Source of the DNA: JAFGIT01 sp016929465 [NCBI: Candidatus Coatesbacteria bacterium]
GTDB taxonomy: Bacteria; B130-G9
DNA length: 6,386 bases
NCBI GenBank assembly: GCA_016929465.1
Contig: JAFGIT010000134.1
Location: 1 to 6,386, forward strand
Direction: 5' to 3'
Shown in pieces: positions 1 through 6,386 of this stretch. The notes below the pieces were generated by a model. That model was not told the DNA's origin, ran no database searches, and worked only from the letters and a program-made list of their open reading frames with translations. The position numbers were made by a program, and so were the translations under genes. The stretch's first letter is position 1. Each line of letters starts with the position of its first letter.

Positions 1-1641
1 ATCAAGGAGAAATTCGACAACAAGAAGCTGTCCGCGTGCCTGGATGCGATCCTTGAGGATATCGTGGAGAACGTGAACGAGTTCAGATCGAGCGATGGGG
101 AGCATCCCGCCTCCGGAAGCGGATCAAAGGCCGGTGAGATAGACCCATTTCTGCGCTATCGCGTGAATGTGCTGCTGGATAACACCGGCAGAGATGACAC
201 CCCGATTATCGTCGAAACTGAGCCCACTGCGCGGAATCTATTCGGAGTTATCGACTTGGTGCCGGAGTCTCAGGGGCAATGGCGGACCGATTTCACGCAA
301 ATCAGGGGCGGTTCTCTCCTAATGGCCGACGGCGGTTTTCTGATTGTGACCGCGATGGACATCCTCGCGCAGCAGGGAGTCTGGGAGCAGCTGAAGCGAA
401 CGCTGAAGAACCAGCAGCTCAGAATATCCATTCCCGAGATGGGCTATCCATTCTCGCAGCATTCTATTCAGCCTGAGCCAATCGACATCAACGTAAAGGT
501 CATAATGATCGGCGACGCGATGATGTTCGAGATGCTCTACAGCCTCGACGATGACTTCAAGAAGATATTCAAGATAAAAGCCGAGTTCGACTCGCAGATG
601 CCGCTCGAGCCCAAGAACATCGCCCACTTCATGTCCGTCTTGTCGAAGATAGGCGGCGACAAGAAGCTCCTGCGATTTCAGAAGAACGCGCTTCTAAGGG
701 TGCTCGAATACGCGATTCGCAGGGCGGGCCGAAGAGACAGGATCTCCACTCGGTTCGGGGAAGTCTCTGACTTACTGAGCGAAGCGAACTTGATTGCCGA
801 GAACGATGGCGCGAAGTCCGTCTCTGAGAAGCATGTTCAGGCCGCGATCGATGCCGCTATAGAGCGGAATAGTCTGATCGAATCGAAGATGAAACGCATG
901 ATCACCAGTGGCTCCATCATCATCGATACCGACGGTGAGAAGGTTGGCCAGGTGAATGGCCTCTCGATTATTGCCACAGCGAACTATGCGTTTGGCCAGC
1001 CGAACAGGATCACCGCCACGACCGCGACAGGCGACAGCGGTATAATAAATATAGAGCGAGAGGCTGATCTATCTGGGAGCACCCACGACAAGGGGGTGCT
1101 CATACTCGCTGGCTTCCTGCGCCAGCGATTCGGCCAGGATAAGCCGCTGAATCTCTCCGCGAGCATCTGCTTCGAGCAGTCTTACTCCGGCATAGATGGT
1201 GACAGCGCCTCATCCACCGAGCTTTACTGCATTCTGTCGAGCCTCTCGGAAGTCCCGATAAAGCAGGGCATCGCCGTGACCGGTTCGGTCAACCAGATGG
1301 GCGAGGTGCAGCCGATTGGCGGGATCAATTTCAAGGTCGAGGGCTTCTTTGACATCTGTAAGGCGAAGGGACTCACGGGCGAGCAGGGCGTCATGATCCC
1401 TCGGCTCAACGTTGAATCGCTGATGCTCCGCCGTGACGTCGTGGATGCTGTGGCCAAGGGCAAATTCCACATCTATCCTGTGGAGACCATCGACGAAGGC
1501 ATCGAAGTGCTGACTGGCAAGCCTGCCGGAAAGCCCGATGCAAAGGGCAGATTCCCCAAGGGCTCGATCAATTACCTCGTGAACGAGAAGCTCGAATCGC
1601 TCGCGCACGCCCTCAAGGAGTTCTCAAAAGAGAAGGAATGA
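1..1641 (+). CDS. Lon-like ATP-dependent protease (AAA_32 / peptidase S16 family), 5' end outside window
   Basis: Cytoplasmic AAA+ serine protease of the Lon-related group that includes E. coli YcbZ; it would unfold and degrade proteins with ATP. The frame is open from base 1, so the gene begins to the left and the GTG at 64 is not the start. 546 residues are visible; the family usually has about 800. The visible N-terminal part matches the AAA_32 region: a Walker B-like strand GGFLIVTAMD (visible residues 111-120), then LDDDFKKIFKIKAEFD (182-197), which is highly characteristic of this family. The Lon protease domain follows, with catalytic Ser402 in DGDSASS and Lys445 in GGINFKVEGFF. They are 43 residues apart, the same spacing as Ser679-Lys722 in E. 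coli Lon. The Walker A motif is expected left of the window. The gene ends at TGA 1639-1641. No clear hairpin terminator follows. Family assignment is very secure; substrate and regulation are unknown. Confidence 0.95.
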   Translation: MKEKFDNKKLSACLDAILEDIVENVNEFRSSDGEHPASGSGSKAGEIDPFLRYRVNVLLDNTGRDDTPIIVETEPTARNLFGVIDLVPESQGQWRTDFTQIRGGSLLMADGGFLIVTAMDILAQQGVWEQLKRTLKNQQLRISIPEMGYPFSQHSIQPEPIDINVKVIMIGDAMMFEMLYSLDDDFKKIFKIKAEFDSQMPLEPKNIAHFMSVLSKIGGDKKLLRFQKNALLRVLEYAIRRAGRRDRISTRFGEVSDLLSEANLIAENDGAKSVSEKHVQAAIDAAIERNSLIESKMKRMITSGSIIIDTDGEKVGQVNGLSIIATANYAFGQPNRITATTATGDSGIINIEREADLSGSTHDKGVLILAGFLRQRFGQDKPLNLSASICFEQSYSGIDGDSASSTELYCILSSLSEVPIKQGIAVTGSVNQMGEVQPIGGINFKVEGFFDICKAKGLTGEQGVMIPRLNVESLMLRRDVVDAVAKGKFHIYPVETIDEGIEVLTGKPAGKPDAKGRFPKGSINYLVNEKLESLAHALKEFSKEKE

Positions 1642-1822: not shown

Positions 1823-4747
1823 TTGGGAAATAATCGCATGCTTGGCCTTCTCAATTCGAATAGGTCATTGGTCGCACAGGTGTGCCTGCTGTTGGTGCTC
1901 GTGTCGATATTCTTCGGGAATGCACTATTCTCTTACCGGCTGTACTTCTACTACGATACGATCATGCAGAACTTCCCGTTTGGGCAGTTCTTCGCTGAGG
2001 GCTTCAGGCAGTTCGAGCTCCGCCTGTGGTGTCCGCAGATATTCTCTGGATTCCCCCTTTTTGCTGAAGGCCAGGCGGGGGCGCTCTATCCGCTTTTTGC
2101 TCCGCTCCTCTTGCTAGCACCCTTCTGGGTGGTCTATAAGTACACCATAGCCCTTCACTCATTCCTTGCGGCTCTCTTCATGCTGCTCTTTTTGAGGCAG
2201 ATGAAGCTCAAGACCCAGAGCTGTTTGTTCGGGGCGGTCGCGTTCGGATTCAGCGGCTTTTTTGTGGCGCAGGTATCACACGCGAACATCATTCGTGGCT
2301 ACTGCTACTTGCCAGCCGTGCTGCTCGCAATCGAGGCGTTCAGGATCCGTGGCGCACGGCGCTGGTGGCTGCTCCCGGTTATATTCGGGACATTCATCCT
2401 CGGAACGCATCCCTACGTCGCCATATACGCCCTGATAGCCGTCGCTTTGTGGCTTCTCTTCGCTCTTCTCGAGAAGAGGAACGAGACGACTCCGCGCGGT
2501 GTCTCCTGGGCAAGATGGTTCGGCGCAATCGGAGGCATAGCCCTTGGATTCGGACTCGCCGCGTGTCAGCTCATTCCGAGCGCAGAGCTACTCGAGCACG
2601 CCAGCCGGGGCGAGGACGTGAGCCTGGAATTCCTGACGGCTGGCTCGCTGCCCATTCATAACTTGTTCACTTTTTTGCTGCCGAATTTCTTCGGCACTCC
2701 TGCTACGAATTGCTACTGGGGGCCGGGGGAGATCGGGCTCTTCGCGGAATTCTGCTGCTACGTTGGCGTCTTGACCCTTCTTCTCGCCGTGGTCGGACTG
2801 TTTTGCTACAGGAAGGGGAGGGTGATCTATTTCGGGGTCCTTCTCGCAGCGGGGACCTTGCTTGCCGTCGGCAACCAGACGCCGCTCTATTCGATTCTAG
2901 CAAAGGTGCCGATTCTGAATGCGACGAGGACCCCCTCCCGATTCATATACCTCGCGGTCTTTGCGTTCTCGGCATTGTCTGCCTATGGTGTTGAATACTT
3001 GCTCTCGATTTCTCAGAAAACGAGGGCGAAGGTCTGCGTCAGCATATTCTTGGCGGCTCTAATTGCTGGTTCTGGGCTTCTCGTCCATCAATTCGCGGAG
3101 CCCAATATCCGGTCATTGGAGGCAGAGAGCTCGCAGCCCGAAGCCAGCAGAGCGCTTGTCAGCGACGAGAGCCGCGCGTTTTTCGAGCACTACCGCGAGG
3201 CACTCGAGGACGACCTGACTCGGTTTTGGGCAATATTGTCGGTCTCAGCGCTGCTCCTGCTTGTGATCGTCATCGCACCCGCTATTTCGCGGCACGCGGC
3301 GTTTGTACTTCCCGTGGTTTTCTTTTTGGACCTTCTCTGGTTTGGGCACGGCTTCAATCCAATCGCAACCACGAAGGTTTATACGAAGCCCCGGAATATG
3401 ACGAAACTATTGCGAGCCGATACGGACACGTTCCGGACTTTGCGTTGGCGGGTCAACGAGATCTGGCATCCGAAGGCACATCTCGAGGAAGGGCAGAGAC
3501 GAGCCGATCCCTTTACTCCCGGCTGGTCCGTGCACCTCGAAAGATACCGCGACTGCACGATGTCGCAGGTGCCCAATACTAACATGCTCTACGACATCGA
3601 CAGCGTCGATGGATACACTTCATTCACACTCGCGAAGTACAACCGACTGCTCGGCGCACCAGGTAAATGCGCGCTGCCCCGGTTCTCGCCCTCGCCAGGG
3701 CTCATGTCGCTTCTGAACGTTAAATATGTCATATCGTCCGAAGCGATCGATCACGGCGCACTCGGACCGGTCTTCAATCAAGATGACCTCTACCTATACC
3801 GATATCGCGACTTCCTCCCGAGGTTCTTTCTGGTGGACAAGGCCATCGTTTTTCCCACCGAGGAAGACGTCCTGAAGGCGGTCTCTTCGGAGACTTTTTG
3901 GCCTCAATTCGGTGTCATATTGGACGCCGGTCAGCTGGAGAAGGCCGCCAGCTACAGCTTCGACTCAATGCTTCGCCATCTGGAGGATATGCTGAAACCA
4001 AAGGAGGACCTGGAGCGACCGGCAAGATGCCAAATTGACCGAATCCGCACACTTGAATACAAATCGGACGAGGTAATCGTTGAGGCCGATTCGGACCGCT
4101 CCGCCTTCCTCGTAATGTCAGATAACGACTATCCCGGCTGGAAGGTGTTTGTGAATGGGGAGCCGGCCCCCATCCTGCGCGCCTATGGCTTCCTGAAGGC
4201 GGTCGCCCTGGGGCCGGGAAAGAGCACGGTCAGATTCGTCTTCGAACCCGGGAGCTTCAGGATCGGCCTTTTGGTTACTCTCCTTTCCACCTTGATCGTT
4301 AGTTGCATAGCATTCGCGTTTCATCCGACCAAGAGAGCCGATACATCCTCCAATACTCCGTGCTACAGCAGGTGGACGACGACAATTGCATGGTTGATCA
4401 TCATCGCGGCAATTGGCACTCTGGTCGTGCCATATTCACTGCAGCTAATGAGAGGATCTGGGCCAGCAAGAATGCAATTCGGATCGGTCATCGCTGATGT
4501 TTACTGCGACGCTGCTGCAGGATCGCTCGTGCGAGGGGAGAATGAGTCGGCAAAATCTGCGGCCAATTCTGCCCTAATGGCCGATCTGGGCAATGTCAGG
4601 GCTCGATATATGCTGGGTGTGGCGCTATACAGGCTATCGGACCGGGCCAGCGCGCTCCAGGTCTGGCAAGACTGCCTGGCAATCGATCCCGGCTACAAGC
4701 CGGCGCTGAAAGCAATCGGTCAGGCAGGAAGAAGAGGGGGACAATAG
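1823..4747 (+). CDS. YfhO-family polytopic membrane protein (GT-C-like) with C-terminal TPR tail
   Basis: About 974 residues. The start is uncertain: TTG 1823 is chosen because GGGGTGA (1810-1816) sits 6 bases before it; GTG 1817 is too close to that site, and ATG 1838 has only a weak GGGA. Roughly a dozen hydrophobic segments fill residues 15-508. Family-like landmarks are Asp45 after TM1 (YYDTIM), GQAGALYP (83-90) and QLIPSAE (249-255). A soluble domain (about 509-810), probably on the outer face, contains LLNVKYVIS (630-638) and the typical YfhO ending with YPGWKVFVNG and a beta-rich stretch. Two more membrane spans (about 812-834, 855-875) precede a tail (about 887-970) with one clear TPR (RARYMLGVALYRL to CLAIDPGY) and probably a second, weaker one. 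Characterised YfhO relatives in Gram-positives act in glycosylating lipoteichoic acid from lipid-linked sugars; the acceptor here is unknown. It ends 4 bases before the GTPase gene. Family secure, reaction inferred. Confidence 0.88.
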   Translation: MGNNRMLGLLNSNRSLVAQVCLLLVLVSIFFGNALFSYRLYFYYDTIMQNFPFGQFFAEGFRQFELRLWCPQIFSGFPLFAEGQAGALYPLFAPLLLLAPFWVVYKYTIALHSFLAALFMLLFLRQMKLKTQSCLFGAVAFGFSGFFVAQVSHANIIRGYCYLPAVLLAIEAFRIRGARRWWLLPVIFGTFILGTHPYVAIYALIAVALWLLFALLEKRNETTPRGVSWARWFGAIGGIALGFGLAACQLIPSAELLEHASRGEDVSLEFLTAGSLPIHNLFTFLLPNFFGTPATNCYWGPGEIGLFAEFCCYVGVLTLLLAVVGLFCYRKGRVIYFGVLLAAGTLLAVGNQTPLYSILAKVPILNATRTPSRFIYLAVFAFSALSAYGVEYLLSISQKTRAKVCVSIFLAALIAGSGLLVHQFAEPNIRSLEAESSQPEASRALVSDESRAFFEHYREALEDDLTRFWAILSVSALLLLVIVIAPAISRHAAFVLPVVFFLDLLWFGHGFNPIATTKVYTKPRNMTKLLRADTDTFRTLRWRVNEIWHPKAHLEEGQRRADPFTPGWSVHLERYRDCTMSQVPNTNMLYDIDSVDGYTSFTLAKYNRLLGAPGKCALPRFSPSPGLMSLLNVKYVISSEAIDHGALGPVFNQDDLYLYRYRDFLPRFFLVDKAIVFPTEEDVLKAVSSETFWPQFGVILDAGQLEKAASYSFDSMLRHLEDMLKPKEDLERPARCQIDRIRTLEYKSDEVIVEADSDRSAFLVMSDNDYPGWKVFVNGEPAPILRAYGFLKAVALGPGKSTVRFVFEPGSFRIGLLVTLLSTLIVSCIAFAFHPTKRADTSSNTPCYSRWTTTIAWLIIIAAIGTLVVPYSLQLMRGSGPARMQFGSVIADVYCDAAAGSLVRGENESAKSAANSALMADLGNVRARYMLGVALYRLSDRASALQVWQDCLAIDPGYKPALKAIGQAGRRGGQ

Positions 4748-4751
4748 CAGG

Positions 4752-5333
4752 ATGTTCTATTCATCTCAGCGCAAAGCGGCGGTCTTCAGGGCTGCGATCT
4801 GGGGCATAGAAGGTGCCGGCAAGACGGAGACACTCGAGGGGCTTATCTCACAGCTGCCGCCGGAGGTCACCAGGGGGAACTGGCTCGGATATCATGGCAT
4901 CTCGGAGAGAGATAAAAGCTCATTCCTGGAATACGTCCCCATCAGGCTCGGCGAACAGGATGGCATAAACCTGATGCTGGAGCTGTTCTCGCCGCAACCG
5001 GACCAGCGGGCGTCCGAGACGTGGCTGGAGATCGTCTCGGGTGCGGATGGGATTATCGTCGTCGTCGATTCCCAGCTGTCCAGACTTACTGAGAACATCG
5101 ATCACCTGGCGGTGCTAAAGGACCTGCTCGCGAATTCGAACAGGTCGCTCATGCGAATTCCCGTCGTCTGCCAATTCAACAAGAGGGACCTTCCCGATAT
5201 CTTGCCATTCGAGGTGCTGGAGCGATTGATCGGATTAAGGACCGCCCCGGCCTTCGAGACGATCGCGTCACAGCAGCTCGGTGTTCTCGACGCAATTCGG
5301 GCGTTGAGAAAGCTCCTGATCCGTTCTCTCTGA
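4752..5333 (+). CDS. MglA-like small Ras-superfamily GTPase with divergent switch residues
   Basis: 193 residues, cytoplasmic, no membrane segment. The P-loop GIEGAGKT is at 18-25, the beta strand IIVVVDSQ at 101-108, the guanine-specifying NKRD at 143-146, and a G5-like AS at 172-173. The pattern VVVDSQ, then CQFNKRDLP, then FETIAS..LGVLDAI follows bacterial MglA (cell-polarity/gliding GTPase) closely, as does the length. Differences are visible: the MglA DRT of switch I (catalytic Arg53, Mg-contacting Thr54) aligns with DKS (54-56), and switch II PGQ aligns with PDQ (83-85) after a one-residue insertion, so the usual Gly is Asp. Slow or altered GTP hydrolysis is an inference. The gene starts 4 bases after the YfhO-family stop; a GAGGGGG (4734-4740) inside the upstream gene serves as Shine-Dalgarno with an 11-base spacer, so coupling is likely. 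No MglB/roadblock gene is visible. No terminator hairpin was found after the TGA. Confidence 0.88.
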   Translation: MFYSSQRKAAVFRAAIWGIEGAGKTETLEGLISQLPPEVTRGNWLGYHGISERDKSSFLEYVPIRLGEQDGINLMLELFSPQPDQRASETWLEIVSGADGIIVVVDSQLSRLTENIDHLAVLKDLLANSNRSLMRIPVVCQFNKRDLPDILPFEVLERLIGLRTAPAFETIASQQLGVLDAIRALRKLLIRSL

Positions 5334-5555: not shown

Positions 5556-5939
5556 GTGAAGGCGCAGGACATTATGACCAAGAAGGTCGAGTTTATCGAC
5601 GGCTCGAAGACGGTCGCAGATGCCATCAAAATGATGAACGAGCACGGCGTGAGCAGCCTGATCGTGGATCATAGGGGCGTTGAAGATGCGTATGGGATCG
5701 TCACGAGAAAGGACGTCGTGAACAAGGTGGTCGCGACGGGAGACGACCCCCACAAGAAGACGGTTGCCGAGATTATGAGCAAACCACTCGTTTTTGCCTC
5801 ACCTGGGCTCGAGCACAAGTACGCGGCGAGATTGCTCGCTACCACGGGCTTCAGAAGGCTGCCAGTCTTTGACGGAAAGAACATAGTCGGAATGCTGTCA
5901 AATTCCGACATCTTCGCTGCATTTTCCAAGACAGTCTAG
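5556..5939 (+). CDS. Stand-alone two-CBS-domain protein (adenine-nucleotide sensor type)
   Basis: 127 residues from GTG 5556, chosen by the GGGAGGG site; ATG 5541 would add five residues that merely read through that site. Two tandem CBS domains make up the whole protein. CBS1 is about 1-60, with the opening AQDIMTKKVEFI and the end motif GIVTRKDVV (47-55). CBS2 is about 69-125, with VAEIMSKPLVFA and VGMLSNSDIF (111-120). The T-x-x-D (Thr50/Asp53) and S-x-x-D (Ser115/Asp118) pairs match the ribose/phosphate-binding positions used by CBS pairs that bind AMP, ATP or similar ligands; ligand identity here is inferred. No catalytic or DNA-binding domain is attached, so it probably acts by binding a partner or as a free sensor. 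It has its own promoter, a half-site-rich upstream region and an intrinsic terminator, so it is monocistronic. No partner is evident among the neighbours. Family call is secure, role unknown. Confidence 0.93.
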   Translation: MKAQDIMTKKVEFIDGSKTVADAIKMMNEHGVSSLIVDHRGVEDAYGIVTRKDVVNKVVATGDDPHKKTVAEIMSKPLVFASPGLEHKYAARLLATTGFRRLPVFDGKNIVGMLSNSDIFAAFSKTV

Positions 5940-5969
5940 TATAGCTGCTAGGTCTTCTTTCTCCTTTGT

Positions 5970-6010
5970 AAGGTCCCGCTATCTGCGTGTGGCGGGACCT
6001 TGACATTTTT
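5970..6010 (+). terminator. Rho-independent terminator of the CBS gene
   Basis: Perfect 10-base-pair stem: AAGGTCCCGC (5970-5979) pairs with GCGGGACCTT (5992-6001) across a 12-base loop. The T-run TTTTT (6006-6010) follows after GACA. It begins 30 bases after the CBS stop codon. On the opposite strand the stem is followed by ACAAAGG with no T-run, so it works only for plus-strand transcription and does not serve the convergent phosphoglycerate mutase gene. The gap of four bases between stem and T-run is slightly long. Confidence 0.85.
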
Positions 6011-6041
6011 ACCTCGTGCGATCGTGAGGAATGGCCTCTTA

Positions 6042-6097
6042 GGCGGCTTGTCCCCGCCCATCTACATCATCGGGCAGGCACAAGGCCAGCCCCTACA
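6042..6097. repeat. Paired palindromes resembling a dispersed intergenic repeat element
   Basis: Two hairpins lie side by side in the convergent gap. The first is GGCGG-CTTGTCC-CCGCC (6042-6058). The second is GGGCAGGC-ACAAG-GCCAGCCC (6072-6092), seven of eight pairs with one A-A mismatch, followed by CTACA. The two halves are also approximate inverted copies of one another (CTTGTCCCCGCCC against GGGCAGGCACAAG). This layout, a GC hairpin with a CAAG/CTTG loop and a flanking CCCCTACA, resembles short palindromic repeats scattered through intergenic DNA of several bacterial phyla. A degraded further half, CAAGGCCCAGCCCC, occurs at 6163-6176. Only one copy is in the window, so dispersal cannot be shown here. 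No other gene is seen between the terminator and 6198. Confidence 0.45.
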
Positions 6098-6198
6098 GGT
6101 GGTATGCATCGAGTCCGCGTCATTCGCCAATCCCCTGGCAAGATGGCCTGTGTTACAGCCTCCAAGGCCCAGCCCCAAATATGGCCTGCGCCGGATCC

Positions 6199-6386
6199 CT
6201 AAGACCCGTACCTGTAGGTGAAGCCCATGAAGTCCAGTAGAGTGAGGAGGAATTGATTGGCGGTCAGACGGCAGAGCCCTCCCCGCTGGCAGGACCTTTC
6301 CGAATATCCCGACACGTTGTCCGTCAGGACATCCGGCCCGTATATCGTCACCGGGACCGGGTCCGCAGTGTGGTCCCCTACCTCGC
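6199..6386 (-). CDS. apgM: 2,3-bisphosphoglycerate-independent phosphoglycerate mutase (archaeal ApgM type), C-terminal 61 residues
   Basis: Interconverts 3- and 2-phosphoglycerate in glycolysis and gluconeogenesis, in the cytoplasm; a metal-dependent member of the alkaline phosphatase superfamily. Reading the reverse complement from the right edge gives an open frame to TAG (6201-6199). It begins EVGDHTADPVPVTIYGPDV, continues with YSERSCQRGGLCRL and ends with ANQFLLTLLDFMGF and FRYG-like YRYGS. GDHTADPVP.-IYGP, the ERSC/A..GGL.R block and a final hydrophobic helix are the diagnostic ApgM C-terminus. About 61 of the family's roughly 400 residues are present; the core metal-binding residues should lie just outside. 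The small GGLCRL variation (often GGLGRI) is within what such families show. It converges with the CBS gene and has no visible terminator of its own. The segment has no start codon in the window and is easily overlooked. Confidence 0.88.
   Translation of the reverse strand, partial: EVGDHTADPVPVTIYGPDVLTDNVSGYSERSCQRGGLCRLTANQFLLTLLDFMGFTYRYGS

Follow-up and report, generated by a model that had tools for sequence, protein, structure and literature searches.

The contig JAFGIT010000134.1 of a Candidatus Coatesbacteria genome (GCA_016929465.1), analyzed here over its entire length of 6,386 bases (the window), carries two adjacent genes that encode a YfhO-family membrane protein with tetratricopeptide repeats (TPR) and a small GTPase of the MglA family. 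The reading that we favor, and to which we give about an even chance, is that of a two-gene operon specific to Coatesbacteria, in which a C-type glycosyltransferase (GT-C) is combined with an MglA protein that has no GTPase-activating protein (GAP) and degenerate switch motifs, and that would act as a nucleotide-bound scaffold or localizer. The gene pair is lineage-specific and not a recurrent system, and it is an altered form of known families rather than a novel kind of system. Its chief interest lies in two features absent from the preliminary description of this DNA, namely the loss of switch residues in the GTPase and the lack of a visible MglB. If the favored reading is true, a Ras-like polarity protein without a switch or a visible GAP is yet under selection in every genome of the phylum examined; the positional role of MglA-type proteins would be separable from GTP hydrolysis, and these genomes would provide a natural test case.

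Distribution of the Gene Pair

The genome of this contig (G000) was compared with three other Coatesbacteria genomes: G001 and G003, which belong to one genus, and G002, which represents the third of the three genera covered. The order YfhO, GTPase, and CBS-domain protein is found in three of the four genomes and in two of the three genera, with 4 bases between the first two genes in G000 (stop codon TAG 4745-4747, start codon ATG 4752) and a single base in G001 and G003, so the pair recurs beyond one assembly. The preliminary description had noted the 4-base spacing, which is exact, and had set the ribosome site for the GTPase within the membrane-protein gene, where the purine-rich AGAGGGGG is a probable candidate. 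Given such tight spacing, the two genes are probably co-translated, as had been proposed, and would lie on one mRNA. The CBS gene is kept downstream of the pair in G001 and G003; in the window it begins about 220 bases past the GTPase gene and is only a candidate member of the operon. The genes upstream of the pair differ, with a Lon-like protease in G000 and an acetate kinase in G001, and the G003 contig starts at the YfhO gene itself.

Between G001 and G003, nonsynonymous (dN) and synonymous (dS) divergences are 0.08 and 0.39 for the GTPase gene and 0.09 and 0.51 for the YfhO gene, and both genes are under purifying selection. Adjacency is also kept between G000 and G001/G003, at a GTPase dS of 1.3-1.4, and because it has survived a divergence of dS >1 between two genera, some functional tie is plausible. 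In G002, both genes are present yet unlinked, the GTPase gene on contig C162 and the YfhO-TPR gene on contig C236, where an open reading frame (ORF; start assigned mechanically) 5 bases downstream of it encodes a periplasmic-binding-protein-like protein.

The conserved adjacency was observed only inside this phylum. We surveyed 241 genomes, 4 from the phylum and 237 from outside it, at thresholds of E ≤ 1e-6 for YfhO (first scored at up to three candidates per genome) and E ≤ 1e-8 for MglA-like proteins. YfhO was found in at least 91 genomes (at least 87 outside the phylum) and an MglA-like match in 93 (89 outside), and at least 44 of the 237 outside genomes hold both families. In none of these 44 did detected members of the two families lie within 15 kb of each other after a repeat YfhO search, which scored 17 of 23 candidates in G042 and 17 of 18 in G100; the closest pairs were separated by 17.4 kb (G154), 28 kb (G170, with a second pair at 45 kb), and 48 kb (G152). 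These distances were computed from 71 MglA-like and 122 YfhO places, repeat pieces of some YfhO genes being omitted, and many of the surveyed genomes are fragmented, so that a pair divided by a contig end would escape detection. A YfhO profile, for which the four phylum sequences were combined, likewise gave no match among the 1673 ORFs at 36 MglA-like loci elsewhere, six of which have flanks of about 1.5 kb or less. As a control, the same profile recovered 18 of 18 outside YfhO loci (17 at E ≤ 2.3e-17 and one ORF at E 0.0012), and it missed two weaker YfhO matches in G001 (on C179 and C20).

The two families often share a genome, and their adjacency was not seen outside the phylum; the counts of 0/44 genomes and 0/36 loci lead us to reject recurrence of the pair there. 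The preliminary description had proposed a dedicated two-gene system, to be checked by tabulating how often a YfhO gene lies upstream of GTPase homologs. This tabulation came out in its favor within the phylum (3/4) and against it at the 36 loci elsewhere, and with the genes unlinked in G002 and no close pair detected in the 44 outside genomes the idea of a dedicated system found no support. None of the papers searched joins YfhO and MglA. The missing recurrence is a caution against deducing new two-gene systems from the gene order of a single contig.

An MglA-Family GTPase with Degenerate Switch Motifs

The GTPase, of 193 residues, matches four solved sequences, all of them MglA (6hjh_A at 7e-23). 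In Pfam it reaches only the Arf family, barely above the cut-off (22.6 bits vs. 22.3), and scans against NCBIfam and PHROGs returned no family. Its structural model has a mean predicted local distance difference test score (pLDDT) of 83.6, with residues 42-46, just before G2, below 50. Fold comparison placed 11 MglA entries at the top (Z 22.9-25.3), the next entry having a Z of 17.8; the best match, 6izw_A, extends over 183 residues at a root mean square deviation (rmsd) of 2.4 (Z 25.3). Sequence and predicted fold therefore both place the protein nearest to MglA, and the "MglA-like" name of the preliminary description is well chosen. Each of the four phylum genomes holds a single MglA-family match, both at E ≤ 1e-3 and with a profile at E ≤ 1e-8.

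Motifs were compared in an alignment of 40 sequences, consisting of the four phylum orthologs, 29 typical relatives, and seven Myxococcota proteins counted apart (numbering of Myxococcus xanthus MglA). The P-loop GKT (GxxxxGKT, G1) and the NKRD motif (NKxD, G4) are intact in all four orthologs, which should still bind guanine nucleotide. At G2, the MglA family is defined by Arg-Thr in Group 1 and Thr-Thr in Groups 2-5, and Group 1 proteins are described as having Arg and TVPGQ in common (PMC4316618). Neither form of G2 occurs in the orthologs: the R53-T54 pair, present in 27 of the 29 typical relatives, is replaced by K-S in G000, T-E in G001, A-E in G003, and R-E in G002. At G3, neither TVPGQ nor GTPGQ is found; in ungapped register, the positions of G81-Q82 hold P-D (G000), A-D (G001), L-D (G003), and A-S (G002), so that Gly and Gln are each missing from 4/4, whereas the G-Q pair is present in 28 and the Gly in all 29 of the typical relatives. 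The M. xanthus T54A variant is reported to be produced, but to equal the deletion parent in swarming and localization tests, while no protein was detectable for Q82A, a stable Q82L being credited to another group (PMC3000849). The GTPase seems to have lost residues by which MglA hydrolyzes GTP and switches.

In the phylogenetic tree, the four orthologs share one long branch (1.64). Compared with MglA of M. xanthus and Thermus thermophilus (Group 1), they are alike in length, sequence, fold, P-loop, and NKRD, and unlike in lacking the Arg-Thr of G2, the PGQ of G3 (in ungapped register), and any MglB/Roadblock protein that we could find. The seven MglA-like proteins of Myxococcota with a WGIEGAGK P-loop (L033-L039) are also degenerate, the G2 Arg being replaced by Pro in 7/7, and the G3 Gly being kept in 5/7 and the Gln in 0/7. 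They differ in forming a separate clade, in having no YfhO, and in their other gene neighbors, although the tree does not fix whether this group is the true sister of the phylum orthologs.

Candidate GAP and Structural Partners

Roadblock proteins (PF03259), the family expected to include MglB, were found in none of the four phylum genomes, in a search whose control was positive in 3 of 14 named genomes. Absence from a single genome is weak evidence, and absence from all four together is less weak. An MglB coupled nearby is usual and not universal in the MglA family, being described for 390 of 449 members (PMC4316618). A 123-residue protein encoded beside bactofilin was considered as a hidden MglB and rejected, with an hhalign probability of 7% against a profile of MglB candidates and no Pfam match.

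This protein belongs to a block of genes for a bactofilin (Pfam-confirmed in 4/4), a 114-125-residue protein, and a 195-residue protein, present in all four phylum genomes; neither of the latter two proteins matched a Pfam family in the copies scanned. In G002, the GTPase gene is the last of a codirectional run of bactofilin, 114-residue protein, 195-residue protein, and GTPase, lying about 145 bases past the 195-residue gene. In G001, the block is on the opposite strand, with 5.6 kb between its nearer edge and the GTPase gene; in G000 it is on a separate contig, beside different genes, and in G003 on a separate contig that ends shortly after the block. All four genomes also yield seven to eight matches each to PF00437, a family of type IV pilus or type II secretion ATPases (one of the matches being below the cut-off in G000, G001, and G003).

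These neighbors bear on a competing explanation, which we regard as possible but less probable than the favored reading: YfhO and GTPase would be co-transcribed by chance or for housekeeping reasons, the GTPase having the bactofilin block as its partner in the manner of SofG, and YfhO working in an unrelated envelope pathway. The G002 arrangement fits it on both sides, given the bactofilin run closed by the GTPase gene and the periplasmic-binding-protein-like ORF next to YfhO, and so does the proximity of the block in G001. BacP, a bactofilin of M. xanthus, has been implicated in the positioning of SofG (PMC5703909), an orphan MglA-family GTPase that is likewise described as lacking a coupled MglB (PMC4316618). 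SofG has 239 residues (PMC4316618) against 193 here, and the window holds no bactofilin. Against this explanation, the bactofilin block adjoins the GTPase gene in one of the four genomes, the G000 block is on another contig, and the YfhO-GTPase pair has been kept across two genera at dS >1 despite differing upstream genes. A bolder reading, in which the sole detected MglA-family protein is a GAP-less pseudo-GTPase that remains nucleotide-loaded and serves as a fixed positional anchor between polar or bactofilin structures and the glycosyltransferase, directing sugar addition to a defined place on the cell, seems to us a long shot.

The YfhO-TPR Membrane Protein

The membrane protein matches PF09586 at 86.3 bits (cut-off 28.5), which bears out the YfhO assignment of the preliminary description, and its NCBIfam matches, such as PgfM2, all fall far below their cut-offs. 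For the TPR part named in the same description, the matches in the window protein are below the Pfam cut-offs, and TPR_2 is above its cut-off in the orthologs of G001, G002, and G003. In a 16-row alignment of YfhO proteins, TPR_2 and TPR_16 match four rows, which are those of Coatesbacteria. These four extend 142-144 residues past window residue 832 (counted from TTG 1823) and include one more transmembrane (TM) helix and the TPR helices, whereas 11 of the 12 rows from outside the phylum carry 0-18 residues there; the twelfth (L099) carries 177 residues with no TPR match.

An AlphaFold2 model from this alignment (mean pLDDT 78) was compared with the PDB by Foldseek. The best matches were AftD (2.4e-8) and PglB (1.9e-4), followed by a chain of a human oligosaccharyltransferase (OST)-containing translocon map (3.3e-4) and AftA (7.5e-3), all loose, with query TM-scores of 0.27-0.37 (PglB 0.27, AftD 0.37). 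We take these top matches to be GT-C enzymes, and on that basis the model points to a GT-C fold, albeit through loose similarity. All 16 rows share Asp45 of the first outer loop, and this residue is presumably the catalytic acidic one. Sugar transfer is the putative activity of the protein.

Bacillus subtilis YfhO, of the csbB-yfhO gene pair and involved in lipoteichoic acid glycosylation, is also a PF09586 protein with many TM helices and a proposed GT-C type, and the loop that joins its last two TM helices is described as large and extracellular (PMC5836110). The window protein likewise has a large outer loop ahead of its last canonical TM helix, and is unlike B. subtilis YfhO in its extra TM helix and TPR and in being followed by a GTPase gene with no CsbB-type gene. 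Since such a loop puts the YfhO C-terminus inside, one added TM helix would place the TPR part outside. Positive-inside counts agree: for 15 TM helices with the N-terminus inside, loops of up to 70 residues hold 14 Lys/Arg in 60 residues inside and 11 in 213 outside, the helix list having been picked by hand from the model with some helices trimmed, joined, or omitted. On this prediction the TPR extension lies on the outer side of the membrane, and no cytoplasmic stretch exceeds 16 residues. The TPR part was also considered as a docking site for the GTPase, and rejected owing to its predicted outer location.

A Working Model and Its Alternatives

Under the favored reading, the YfhO enzyme would move sugar from a lipid carrier at the outer face of the membrane, where the added TPR domain would probably hold an acceptor or partner. 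The GTPase would bind guanine nucleotide without GTP cycling. Since it lacks switch residues and the search for an MglB-type GAP came up empty, it would most likely be a constitutively nucleotide-bound cytoplasmic scaffold or localizer and not a GTP timer, perhaps sitting at the pole or at bactofilin or pilus structures. Co-translation would keep both proteins in step in two genera; direct contact between them is possible, but not needed.

The preliminary description had instead suggested spatially or GTP-controlled surface glycosylation, that is, a dedicated system in which the nucleotide state or position of the GTPase governs where or when YfhO acts. The tight spacing kept in three genomes, the purifying selection on both genes, and the pilus or secretion ATPases and bactofilin of all four genomes, which indicate that polar structures may exist, are compatible with such control. 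We nevertheless consider it quite improbable, the genes being unlinked in G002, no linkage having been detected in the 44 other genomes with both families, and the predicted topology putting the TPR part outside and leaving no cytoplasmic loop longer than 16 residues. Together with the lost switch residues and the failure to find Roadblock/MglB, this topology weakens the idea of GTP control, and the G002 neighbors add to the case against GTP-timed control of YfhO.

Several observations weigh against the scaffold reading itself. In three of the four orthologs (not G002), a Gln lies one residue further on (Gln85 in the window copy), and because the HMMER alignment sets it opposite Q82 by means of a one-residue gap, a shifted catalytic Gln is possible in these three; G000 also has a Ser at T54, and G002 retains the Arg at R53. 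The GTPase could then be an active switch with a reinvented mechanism, drawing either on this Gln, within its PDQ/ADQ/LDQ motif, or on the catalytic residues of a partner protein; a Gln acting in trans has been speculated for the Group 1 Rup GTPases by Wuichet and Sogaard-Andersen (PMC4316618). We consider this unlikely, as the Gln does not occur in G002, none of the four orthologs retains the G3 Gly, and the G2 Thr has become Glu in three of them. An MglB could also have been missed, since the phylum genomes are 83-95% complete and some Roadblock members reportedly escape the Pfam model (PMC4316618). For the membrane protein, the GT-C match is loose (the AftD superposition has an rmsd of about 21), the outer placement of the TPR tail hangs on one extra helix, and the tail itself holds 12 Lys/Arg in 98 residues.

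Contig Organization and Related Loci

The window is contig C263 of G000, an assembly with an estimated completeness of 86%, and contains four genes, all on the forward strand (table 1); none of the four, when scanned, proved to be a CsbB-type glycosyltransferase gene. The YfhO gene has three candidate starts, GTG 1817, TTG 1823, and ATG 1838, of which the last aligns with an ATG of the G003 ortholog and is the more likely.

Table 1. Features of the window, and the bactofilin blocks of the four Coatesbacteria genomes (locus:positions).
Feature	Position	Strand	Basis or remark
Lon-like protease, AAA_32 and LonB lid domains	1-1641	+	Truncated at base 1 by contig start
YfhO-family (GT-C type, predicted) membrane protein with extra C-terminal TM helix and TPR extension	1823..4747 (start possibly ATG 1838)	+	PF09586, loose GT-C PDB matches, Asp45, TPR matches
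YfhO extension with a TM helix at residues 849-876 and, on the predicted outer side, TPR helices at 886-970	4367..4744	+	Model helices, positive-inside count, TPR_2/TPR_16 matches
Putative ribosome site of GTPase gene, AGAGGGGG, within YfhO gene	4733..4740	+	Purine-rich; ends 11 bases before ATG 4752
MglA-family small GTPase, P-loop and NKRD intact, G2 and G3 degenerate	4752..5333	+	Sequence, predicted fold, motif alignment
Two-CBS-domain protein	5556..5939 (ORF may begin 5541)	+	PF00571, synteny
Bactofilin, 114-125-residue, and 195-residue protein blocks	L106:9266-11077; L043:5100-6959; L107:7739-9572; L046:875-2868		

Past the CBS gene, the last 450 bases or so (5940-6386) show no evident gene; the ORFs there, on either strand, are all short and overlap. 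The degenerate MglA-like genes of Myxococcota have recurrent neighbors of their own. A GAF-domain protein is encoded downstream in all four loci scanned (L033, L034, L037, and L039), with a GGDEF match as well in L033, L034, and L037 and GAF only in L039. Directly upstream, L033, L035, L037, and L039 encode an uncharacterized protein of 355-366 residues, itself preceded by an EF-G-like GTPase in L033, L037, and L039 and, in L035, where no EF-G-like gene was seen, by a type III pantothenate kinase.

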